Shown here: positions 60,102-62,190 of the stretch, one piece after another
Position numbering within the stretch: position 1 is the first letter of the stretch
Layout of the letters: the number at the start of each line of letters is the position of its first letter
Assembly (NCBI RefSeq): GCF_001238295.1
Contig: NZ_LGXZ01000002.1
Span: 248,001 to 312,000 of the forward strand
DNA from: Ruegeria sp. 6PALISEP08
Lineage (GTDB): Bacteria > Pseudomonadota > Alphaproteobacteria > Rhodobacterales > Rhodobacteraceae
Length of the DNA: 64,000 nt
Direction of reading: 5' to 3'
Program-made: the position numbers and the translations under genes
Notes under the pieces: generated by a model
Told to the model about the DNA's origin: nothing
Databases searched by the model: none
The model's input: the letters and a program-made list of their open reading frames with translations, nothing else

Positions 60102-60605
60102 TCACGCGTCCCCGACGCCATCGAGATAGACCATCGGGTCGAAATCGTCGGGCAGATCGTCCATCCATTCTTCGGCTTTGGCCAGTTCCTCGACTTCGTA
60201 GGTCTCGGGCTTCCAAATCTGGAACGTGTCACCGGCAGCGATAAAGAAGGCCTCGCTCTCCAGATCGATCTTGGTGCGCAGCTTGGCGGGCAGAACCAGA
60301 CGCCCGGTTTCATCCACGTTTGTCGGGAAGGACTGACCGTGGAACATGCGTTGCAACATTTTGCGCTCCATCGAGCCACGCGGAAGCGCGTCGATTTTGG
60401 CATCGACCTCGTCAATCGCCTGCATGGTATAACATTCAAGGTATTTGCGACGGTGATCGCCGTACACAATCACGAGTTCAGGATTGTCACCAGGCTGCCA
60501 GTTGGGATCGGAAGCTTCAAGCACACGGCGAAACGAGGCCGGGATCGAGACCCTGCCCTTCGTGTCCACCTTATGGTGGCTTTCACCTCTAAACCTGCGC
60601 GCCAA
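60102..60605 (-). CDS. mraZ: Transcriptional regulator MraZ
   Basis: A 167-residue DNA-binding protein with two SpoVT/AbrB half-domains. The first has [13 protein letters not shown] and the second [13 protein letters not shown]. It is the first gene of the dcw cluster and represses that cluster in E. coli by binding TGGGN repeats. The start codon is TTG at 60605 with AAGGGAC upstream, which should limit its translation. An intrinsic terminator in its leader and TGGG repeats farther upstream fit feedback control. Confidence 0.96.
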
Positions 60606-60658
60606 GACGACTGTCCCTTTCGCTTGCGCCCCACTTAAAATTCACGTCCCCAGAAGGT

Positions 60659-60700
60659 AAAAACGGCGGGTTGATCTGCTGCCACTGATCAACCCGCCGC
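60659..60700 (-). terminator. Intrinsic terminator in the mraZ leader
   Basis: CGGCGGGTTGATC (60665-60677) and GATCAACCCGCCG (60688-60700) form a perfect 13-bp stem with a 10-nt loop. On the minus strand a run of six T follows at 60664-60659. It is only 53 bp upstream of the mraZ start codon and after any visible promoter, so most transcripts should stop here and the cluster depends on read-through. Confidence 0.85.
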
Positions 60701-60977
60701 ATTGACCCGCTTTGCGGGATGTCCAGCTGCACGCGCCACCTGGGGGGATGTCTGCTCGCCCGCGCGCCGGATCTCTTGATTGATGAAAGCGAGATGCCTG
60801 TATGAAACCTGATTAGTATTTTTGGTTCGGGGTCGTTTGGCGCCCCTGCTGCCTCGTCCTCATCGGATGTATAAGGGATGCCATGGGAATTCATGGAAAT
60901 CAATAGGAAATTTTTTGATCGTGTCGCTTGAAGCACGGCACATCTATACTGAAACGGAAGAAATTCGGCATCAATAC
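60659..60977 (-). ncRNA. UpsM-like leader small RNA upstream of mraZ
   Basis: The minus-strand leader between a promoter near 61000 and the terminator at 60659-60700 should yield a small RNA. Rhodobacter sphaeroides is known to have an uncommonly long dcw leader that gives the sRNA UpsM by partial termination before mraZ. Here the 3' end is well defined by the terminator. A second hairpin (CCCGC-TTT-GCGGG, 60707-60719) lies just before it. The 5' end is uncertain; 60977 follows from the best promoter match and gives about 319 nt, longer than I recall for UpsM, so processing or another start is possible. Confidence 0.65.
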
Positions 60978-60983
60978 ACCATA

Positions 60984-61012
60984 ATTAGAAGCGAACCGCC
61001 CAACAATATCAA
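60984..61012 (-). promoter_or_regulatory. Candidate dcw promoter
   Basis: On the minus strand TTGATA (61012-61007) and TCTAAT (60989-60984) are separated by exactly 17 bp, matching the sigma70 pattern at five of six positions in the -10 element. This would start the long mraZ leader near 60977. It is the best match seen in the gap, not a proven start. Confidence 0.45.
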
Positions 61013-61191: not shown

Positions 61192-61595
61192 TACGCAGTC
61201 ACTTGCGACCGCAAAAGCGAGTCTCCGACCTGCCTCCACCCCGGAAAACTGGAATCAACGAGACGATGCTACGCCTCCAAAAGGCCAGTCGTTGGTGCCC
61301 TCCGACACTTCAATGATCTGATGCCAGCATTTCACATCGCATAAATTCACGCCGAACATGCTCAATTCAAAGGCACCCCACCGCGTGGCGTTTTTCCAGG
61401 CGCTGACGGTGCCTCAGACAATACCTATATTTCAAAGGCGTATTTCACCGCCACGAAAAACCCGAACCAATCTATGCATTTGCTGCATGGCAGCATTGAC
61501 GATGTGACCTATTGTGCAATCGCAGCATTTGCCTATTTTCAATCTCAAGCAAGGGCCGAGTGATATCGGTAACACAAGACAGACGGATGATGAAA
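61192..61595. other. Gene-free region upstream of the DUF1127 gene
   Basis: No gene is supported in these ~400 bp; short open frames here lack ribosome sites and family matches. The stretch must contain the plus-strand promoter of the DUF1127-RNA array. The best candidate is TTGTGC (61512-61517), 16 bp, TATTTT (61534-61539). A heat-shock type sigma factor drives the equivalent locus in R. sphaeroides, but I could not assign such a motif with confidence. Confidence 0.4.
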
Positions 61596-61820
61596 ATGGC
61601 AGTCGCAGGCACACATACAGCACATAAAAGCACAACGGCGTTTGGATTGGCCGCATTGGTTGAGACCGCCAAGACCCGTTTTGTGCGCTATCGCATGTAT
61701 CGCCAGACAGTTAACGAACTGTCCGGGCTGTCAAATCGTGAACTGACCGATCTGGGCCTGCACCGCTCGATGATCCGCCGGGTCGCGTTGCAGGCCGCAG
61801 AAGACCACACCGCGCGTTAA
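61596..61820 (+). CDS. DUF1127 small arginine-rich protein
   Basis: A 74-residue protein whose C-terminal ~45 residues are the DUF1127 domain: RYRMYRQTVNELSGLSNRELTDLGLHRSMIRRVALQA. Such small basic proteins can bind RNA in alphaproteobacteria. ATG at 61596 (MAVAGTHTAHKST) has GGATGATGAAA upstream; in-frame ATGs at 61587 and 61590 are alternatives. In R. sphaeroides a DUF1127 gene precedes the CcsR RNAs and is co-transcribed with them. The same layout is seen here, the first RNA hairpin beginning 20 bp after the stop. Confidence 0.85.
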   Translation: MAVAGTHTAHKSTTAFGLAALVETAKTRFVRYRMYRQTVNELSGLSNRELTDLGLHRSMIRRVALQAAEDHTAR

Positions 61821-61840: not shown

Positions 61841-61909
61841 CAGGCCCTTCCTCCTCCCTTTGGGTCTGTAATCAGCGGCAACGTCTTTCCTCCTCCCTGA
61901 CGTTGCCGC
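61841..61909 (+). ncRNA. CcsR/cuckoo-type small RNA, unit 1
   Basis: This unit has two hairpins. The first is CAGGCCC (61841-61847) with GGGTCTG (61862-61868), including one G-U pair. The second is a perfect 11-bp stem, GCGGCAACGTC (61875-61885) with GACGTTGCCGC (61899-61909). Both loops carry CCTCCTCCC (61850-61858 and 61889-61897), complementary to Shine-Dalgarno sequences. This is the defining layout of CcsR or cuckoo RNAs of alphaproteobacteria. It differs from units 2 and 3 in its first stem. Confidence 0.85.
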
Positions 61910-61944
61910 ACCTTATACCGGCCTCAAGATGCTGGAACCTGATA

Positions 61945-62020
61945 CATCAGGGCTCTCCTCCTCCCTGCCTTGATGTTGAAAGCGCGCGGCGACGCATTCC
62001 TCCTCCCTAGCGTCGCCGCG
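61945..62020 (+). ncRNA. CcsR/cuckoo-type small RNA, unit 2
   Basis: The first hairpin is CATCAGGGC (61945-61953) with GCCTTGATG (61967-61975). The second is a perfect 11-bp stem, CGCGGCGACGC (61985-61995) with GCGTCGCCGCG (62010-62020). Each loop holds CCTCCTCCC (61957-61965 and 61999-62007). The spacer before it (TATACCGG...) resembles the spacer before unit 3, as expected for a tandem duplication with processing sites between units. Confidence 0.85.
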
Positions 62021-62055
62021 TCTTCCTCATACCGGGCTCAGACCCGGGTTCGCAT

Positions 62056-62136
62056 ACGTCAGGGCTCTCCTCCTCCCTGCTCTGATGTTGACAAGACGGC
62101 GGTTCCCTTCCTCCTCCCTGGGAACCGCCGTTTTTT
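62056..62136 (+). ncRNA. CcsR/cuckoo-type small RNA, unit 3
   Basis: The first hairpin is 62056-62065 with 62079-62088 (ACGTCAGGGC and GCTCTGATGT, two G-U pairs). The second is a perfect 11-bp stem, CGGCGGTTCCC (62097-62107) with GGGAACCGCCG (62120-62130). Loops hold CCTCCTCCC at 62069-62077 and 62110-62118. The last stem is followed by TTTTTT, so it also ends the whole transcript. Confidence 0.87.
62097..62136 (+). terminator. Intrinsic terminator of the RNA array
   Basis: The 11-bp GC-rich stem of the last hairpin (62097-62107 with 62120-62130) is directly followed by six T (62131-62136). It ends the DUF1127-sRNA transcript 54 bp before the DUF1330 gene. Confidence 0.85.
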
Positions 62137-62190
62137 GTTTTTTCGACACTGGTGTAAGATGGCCTTCTGATTTCTGATCCGGAGGACGCC

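Follow-up and report, generated by a model that had tools for sequence, protein, structure and literature searches.

A DUF1127-linked array of CcsR-like hairpin RNAs in a Ruegeria genome, with a predicted stress promoter and scattered hairpins of the same kind

Within the window, as we call the whole 64,000-nucleotide stretch of DNA analysed here, lies a run of hairpins that, together with the gene in front of it, we take with a probability of about 0.93 to be the ccaF1-CcsR (CIN1, or "cuckoo") operon of a Ruegeria species, working by the mechanism proposed below. A small RNA operon studied in R. sphaeroides is now placed in a roseobacter genus with an anatomy that can be tested, and this anatomy bears on the identification of the CcsR1 counterpart among the units, on the sites of unit gain and loss, and on a promoter module recognisable across the family. 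In copy number and in its first unit the array is ordinary for the genus; the promoter and the hairpins dispersed through the genome merit a second look.

The motif CCTCCTCCC occurs six times, always on the plus strand, with starts at 61850, 61889, 61957, 61999, 62069 and 62110, and a sequence scan of the 64-kb window found it nowhere outside 61850-62118. An earlier, sequence-only reading of this DNA had described six hairpins in 61841..62136, each with the motif in its loop, and so it proves: every copy sits in a loop closed by 7 to 15 consecutive base pairs (G-U allowed). The distances from one motif start to the next alternate (39, 68, 42, 70 and 41 bases), so that the array resolves into three two-hairpin units with small motif-free linker hairpins between them, all on the plus strand. 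Unit 1 is made of hairpin 1 (61841..61868, the 7-bp stem CAGGCCC/GGGTCTG) and hairpin 2 (61875..61909, 11 bp); unit 2 of hairpin 3 (61944..61976, 10 bp) and hairpin 4 (61984..62021, 12 bp); and unit 3 of hairpin 5 (62056..62088, 10 bp) and hairpin 6 (62093..62143), whose 15-bp stem carries its motif in the loop and runs into a T-rich tract at 62131-62143. The second stems had been given as perfect stems of 11 bp, and here the sequences stand while the length does not quite, two of the three extending past 11 bp. The two linker hairpins (61918..61935 and 62032..62047, 5 bp each) and the part played by the last hairpin are absent from the earlier account. Read as sequence, hairpin 6 and its T-rich tract are likely the intrinsic terminator of the array; a terminator scan limited to loops of 3-8 bases found none there.

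The array is preceded on its own strand by a DUF1127 gene (61587..61820, Pfam PF06568, 54.8 bits), the positional counterpart of ccaF1, whose stop codon ends 20 bases short of the first array stem and whose start may be the ATG at 61596, as in aligned relatives. Its eight nearest relatives in the named collection are all Ruegeria, at 83% to 68% identity, in a search that may have passed over entries for this genome or for one very close to it. A DUF1330 gene follows the array, and to the left of the operon stands a divergent mraZ gene (60102-61000, minus strand); the mraZ 5' UTR of R. sphaeroides gives rise to the small RNA UpsM (PMC7866481, in excerpt).

Could such an array be an accident of composition? 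The 4.46-Mb genome holds 17 motif copies on both strands, 6 in the array and 11 elsewhere, and the background rate predicts 0.00035 copies on the array strand of the interval. When flanks were drawn at random from the window 20,000 times, a stem of at least 7 bp arose in 3.1% of draws, of at least 10 bp in 0.14% and of at least 12 bp in 0.015%. The 320-nt stretch folds at -139.7 kcal/mol, compared with -93.2 (sd 5.0) in 100 shuffles (z = -9.4). A chance origin of the hairpin array is excluded.

What the stems have kept during their divergence is pairing. For hairpin 2, aligned in 35 of the 45 first units meeting a spacing rule (12 loci having been set aside earlier), 96.9% of pair cells are retained as against 80.8% after shuffling, and 69 cells have changed on both sides as against 16.9, values reached by none of 500 shuffles in either case, in a sample that favours structure, since the 35 units were picked by eye for a regular first unit. 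The covariation score for the same genomes was likewise matched by 0 of 500 shuffles; 8 of the 11 pairs have changed on both sides, a count that 26 of 500 shuffles reach. The full array was also aligned for seven Ruegeria, made up of the window plus 6 of the 12 named Ruegeria and allied loci. In these, 99.2% of cells are paired and 10 of 73 pairs have changed on both sides (shuffled mean 5.0), and again no shuffle among 500 did as well on either count; further pair types across the whole array of these seven were not above shuffles (305/500). Hairpin 6 and the linker hairpins hardly vary, the pairs of the second linker being invariant in the seven, and so contribute little or no covariation evidence. 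The array is a real RNA under selection, in which stem pairing is kept while the sequence drifts, as had been argued from the three second stems of this one genome.

To which family, then, does it belong? The sequence-only reading had proposed three tandem RNAs of the CcsR/cuckoo type behind a DUF1127 gene and had named a covariance-model search as the check. That proposal holds on gene order, on the Pfam match and on sub-threshold matches of the Rfam CcsR1 model (RF02791) to all three units, with 47.1 bits for unit 1 and 35.2 and 32.6 for the others (E-values 1e-9, 3e-6 and 2e-5); by that check itself the proposal would half fail, for the CcsR1 gathering cut-off is 65.3 and none of the Rfam families attains its gathering score anywhere in the window. 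The ar14/NfeR1 model (RF02344) comes to 49.8 bits at best against a cut-off of 58.8, with two stretches at E <= 1e-4, and weaker sub-threshold matches were given by ar7 and, on the opposite strand, by the bacterial small RNA family STnc500 (24.6 bits against 44). Among seven array loci scored, CcsR1 clears its cut-off in three, never on any unit but the first, and ar14 clears its own in one, at the last hairpins of L068 (68.2 bits), so that the two families are not sharply separated. (In that relative a cobalamin riboswitch, at L068:1511-1706 and 112.2 bits, adjoins the array.) We ascribe the missed CcsR1 cut-off to the narrowness of the Rfam model, as gene order, the motif in the loops, the architecture and the covariation all point the same way, and we file the array under the DUF1127-linked CcsR-like (CIN1, cuckoo) class, as the positional counterpart of ccaF1-CcsR and not as an Rfam CcsR1 match. 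Three features of a CIN1 locus are present: a DUF1127 gene upstream on the same strand, tandem CCUCCUCCC-loop hairpins with variable stems and, by our reading, a 3' terminator.

Two details had been offered as new for this genome, the three-unit copy number and an odd first unit, and neither survives comparison with relatives. Three units are the usual number in Ruegeria (7 of 9 loci so named, the other two having four, with the motif slightly relaxed), and among the 12 named Ruegeria and allies there are three units in 7, four in 4 and seven hairpins in one. We read 61 family arrays, namely the window and 60 loci from 59 genomes picked among the matches listed, leaving out arrays at contig ends and some others (G091 and G049, for example); they hold from 2 to 26 exact motif copies, and in the largest 19 of the 26 copies lie in stems of at least 6 bp. 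A DUF1127-like frame, recognised by sequence pattern, ends 15-181 bases ahead of the first motif in 54 of the 61, and the pattern found none in the other 7. In three genomes (G165, G272 and G050) the repeat looks, from its spacing, like one of three hairpins; expanded arrays in other genera (L059, L088 and L099), among them the genome with 26 motif copies, also seem to be built of three-hairpin repeats.

Of 295 family genomes, 216 contain a pair of motifs at a distance of 18-48 bases, and the other 79 lack this exact pattern. In a sample from the class 23 of 387 genomes had it, 5 of 6 family members and 18 of 381 others; to the eye, some matches in the latter group resemble low-complexity chance and others (G655, G302) real arrays. 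At 54 of 65 named loci (L208-L272), nearly all rhizobial by title, at least two motifs lie downstream of a DUF1127 match. The pattern was also seen at no fewer than 80 loci on viral contigs, 26 of those 80 having at least two same-strand stems that reach 8 bp (one locus is simply a tandem repeat); 3 of 11 viral contigs checked pass the ar14 cut-off (loci include L274, L277 and L345), and such loci could be prophages flanked by host small RNA genes.

The first unit, with its stem CAGGCCC/GGGTCTG, resembles a short form of the family first stem CAG...GCCC / GGG...CTG. At the 27 of 61 loci that have at least three regular units, we compared units stripped of the motif: in 77 of 120 cases the nearest relative at another locus came from the same position class (first, inner or last), as against 48 +- 6 and a maximum of 68 in 2000 permutations. 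First units and last units each did so in 17 of 27 cases, the last units including terminator flank, which possibly adds to the signal. First and last units thus tend toward position specificity, and genomes differ in how many units they carry. A first unit whose relatives hold the same position, and which the Rfam CcsR1 model fits, is a position-specific unit and not an odd one.

The promoter raises a different question: what turns the operon on? A promoter of the RpoHI/RpoHII type is predicted at 61512..61536 on the plus strand, with TTG at 61512-61514, TAT at 61534-61536 and a start near 61548. The rule for such promoters is TTG at -35 and TAT at -12 (PMC10673084 and PMC3441632, both in excerpt); here the two elements lie at the expected distance, and similar sequence occurs in relatives. 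On the same strand are two PhaR-like sites. Site 1, CTGCATGGCAGCA at 61483..61495, matches CTGC-N3-GCAG, and its stretch 61483-61493 is of the CTGCNNNGCAG type, the reported consensus site of R. sphaeroides PhaR; site 2, TTGTGCAATCGCAGCA at 61512..61527, reads TTGTGC-N4-GCAGCA and overlaps the predicted -35 element. A PhaR-bound site of the S. meliloti small RNA gene mmgR is CAATTGTGCACCGCAGCATTA (PMC12542648, in excerpt, for both PhaR sequences).

Sites of these kinds recur upstream of the arrays. TTGTGC-N4-GCAGCA is found at 48 of 61 family loci and in none of 20 dinucleotide-shuffled sets, and CTGC-N3-GCAG at 37 of 61, against 0 to 4 per shuffled set; in control stretches downstream of arrays the counts are 0/66 for the site 2 type and 1/66 for the site 1 type. 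With a spacer of 3-4 bases allowed, the site 2 type is present in all 12 Ruegeria and allies and in 0 of 54 rhizobial arrays, and the site 1 type in 8 of 12 and 8 of 54. The two co-occur at 31 loci, in 30 of which they are 28 or 29 bases apart, and in the Ruegeria genome a phasin gene, shortly downstream of which lies a PHB_acc_N-domain gene that we take to be phaR, has two PhaR-like sites 30 bases apart; the tandem DUF1127 genes on contig C13 have two as well. Against reading site 2 as a PhaR site count its spacer of 4 bases in place of 3 and the -35 TTG within it, which would be expected to be conserved for another reason. The CTGCNNNGCAGCA pattern has 34 matches in the genome (5 for a reversed control), so a PhaR-like site is not special to these genes; and the PhaR domain is present in all 40 genomes checked out of 60, so that its presence cannot discriminate. 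Control of the DUF1127-array operon by PhaR has good but unproven standing; were it real, stress RNAs with reported effects on C1 and pyruvate metabolism would have a direct link to carbon storage as PHB. The titles and abstract openings of the literature on DUF1127 with PhaR contain no link between PhaR and CcsR, a statement that extends to the broader literature only in part; three CcsR/CcaF1 papers mention neither PhaR nor PHB, and the paper on PhaR of S. meliloti mentions none of CcsR, CcaF1, NfeR1 and DUF1127.

The motif also has a life outside the array. Four of the 11 off-array copies lie in stems of at least 6 bp: behind another DUF1127 gene (C3:142913, L112; 8-bp stem); behind the tandem DUF1127 pair (C13:91385, L110; 14-bp stem, with a second, variant hairpin visible by eye); in the 3' UTR of hsp20 (C15:68793, L111 / L123; 11-bp stem); and, as a 6-bp stem with the motif in its loop, ahead of a gene (C26:12281, L113). 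That gene we take to be NrtA-like; the short hairpin ahead of it, downstream of a presumed ANTAR-type regulator, probably belongs to a leader terminator. DUF1127 itself has nine matches in the genome. Another genome of the genus (G043) retains both the C3-type DUF1127 hairpin and the hsp20 hairpin; no dispersed hairpin with a stem of at least 8 bp was seen at the 9 off-array places of G038 or at the 18 read, out of 20, in G005. Chance can reach such lengths, for G043 has a 9-bp motif stem inside a coding frame that is presumably accidental.

The hsp20 hairpin could be followed through the genus. In an alignment of 27 of 31 genus 3' UTRs (the loci include L424-L452), 99.6% of cells are paired as against 91.9% after shuffling; the covariation score was reached by 0 of 500 shuffles, and 5 of 9 pairs have changed on both sides, as 34 of 500 shuffles also have. 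Six of the 31 have precisely CCTCCTCCC in the loop, and the rest mostly a related pyrimidine-rich sequence. The terminator that follows often has CCTCCA in its own loop. Outside the genus the hairpin was not seen in 26 family UTRs, one look-alike excepted, and a family-wide hsp20 3' UTR motif was rejected as a candidate: a stop codon was found at 26 of 30 loci, and a CCTCC-loop stem of at least 6 bp followed in only 3 of the 26, one of them a plain terminator.

These two strands might be joined in one wider proposal, to which we would give a little less than an even chance: that the DUF1127-CcsR operon of the Rhodobacteraceae is a conserved PhaR target, the PHB-sensing regulator sitting on a fixed operator pair of which one member overlaps the RpoH -35 element, so that the anti-Shine-Dalgarno RNAs would be set free only in cells that meet stress together with carbon storage; and that the hairpin of the array is a 3' UTR cassette which other stress genes (DUF1127 genes, hsp20) have either acquired or evolved on the spot, the whole making up a dispersed anti-Shine-Dalgarno regulon.

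How would the operon work? An RpoH-type stress promoter would give one RNA, made of the DUF1127 message, a 3' UTR of three two-hairpin RNAs and an intrinsic terminator. Processing by RNase E, in which the DUF1127 protein has a share, probably releases the three RNAs from the 3' UTR, as is reported for R. sphaeroides; we would guess the cut sites to be the unpaired stretches around the linker hairpins. The stems would serve as scaffolds for the loops, and the two CCUCCUCCC loops of each RNA, whose conservation is evident, would base-pair with Shine-Dalgarno sequences like GGGAGGAGG, keeping selected mRNAs from being translated. In R. sphaeroides there are reports of transcription by RpoHI/II, of RNase E and CcaF1 in maturation, of flhR as a target and of dependence on Hfq (PMC10253847, PMC8307010 and PMC7866481, in excerpt), as well as of induction of CcsR by stress and effects on C1 metabolism (PMC8307010 and PMC10253847, in excerpt). 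Against this, some DUF1127 proteins work through protein contacts, and for YjiS no binding to RNA was detected (PMC12501420, in excerpt). In the Ruegeria genome and in G043, GGGAGGAGG stands 4 bases ahead of the ATG of a FIST-domain gene, which is a candidate target of the array; it is the one perfect-complement target common to both genomes, and this lends such targets little weight. A second place tried as a target, C16:99715 with its look-alike in G043, was rejected, the motif there lying inside a coding frame, presumably a ParB/RepB-like one.

It is possible, at perhaps the odds of an outsider, that the hairpins act mainly in cis, the 3' UTR stabilising the DUF1127 message and ending transcription and the loop binding a protein (the DUF1127 protein, for example, or Hfq) and not a Shine-Dalgarno sequence. 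The array does lie within the 3' UTR, with a terminator-like last hairpin, and behind the second DUF1127 gene, the tandem pair and hsp20 the motif hairpins stand singly, where a trans-acting RNA is less obvious; yet one 3' end needs no six copies, the motif is the precise complement of an extended Shine-Dalgarno sequence, and in R. sphaeroides the RNAs are cut from the 3' UTR, depend on Hfq and target flhR (PMC8307010 and PMC7866481, in excerpt). Slightly less probable still is a general anti-Shine-Dalgarno decoy, in which arrays made under stress would titrate mRNAs with strong Shine-Dalgarno sequences, or compete with 16S rRNA, so that dose would matter more than individual targets. The identical loops and the family genome with as many as 26 motif copies would suit it, as would GGGAGGA, which lies 3-12 bases ahead of an ATG in 95 matches against 6 for the reversed pattern (some double-counted, and some being the array read backwards); but perfect GGGAGGAGG before a credible start is rare, at 2 of 7 non-hairpin off-array places (a third precedes a doubtful 91-aa frame), and a plain decoy has no need of position-specific differences between units. 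That the array is a functionless tandem repeat or a transposon-like sequence is very improbable, for near-identical units in some relatives (G051 and G165, for example) are outweighed by compensatory changes, position-specific units, and conserved promoter sites and gene. Hairpin RNAs cut from the 3' UTR of a stress operon and acting on selected messages remain our reading.

Set beside known systems, the locus finds its place as follows. Reinkensmeier and Giegerich reportedly described, in 2015, a cuckoo RNA as having 2 to 4 hairpins per RNA, a definition that three two-hairpin RNAs fit and one six-hairpin RNA would not. From the Rfam CcsR1 consensus the Ruegeria array departs in the sequences of its stems, and it scores below the cut-off. 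With alpha-r14/NfeR1 (RF02344) of the rhizobia it shares tandem CCUCCUCCC hairpins and variable stems; NfeR1 of Sinorhizobium, however, is described as having three hairpins and an RpoD-type promoter of its own (PMC10746234, in excerpt), whereas the Ruegeria array consists of two-hairpin units in a DUF1127 3' UTR. The cuckoo family and CIN1 locus have the same adjacent hairpins, constant loop, variable stems and DUF1127 neighbour (PMC10253847, in excerpt). To ccaF1-CcsR1-4 of R. sphaeroides (RSP_6037), finally, the likeness runs from a predicted promoter signature of the RpoH type, through a DUF1127 gene followed by tandem CCUCCUCCC RNAs, to a terminator at the end, and a further difference is one of number, three units in Ruegeria and four in R. 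sphaeroides (PMC10253847, in excerpt).
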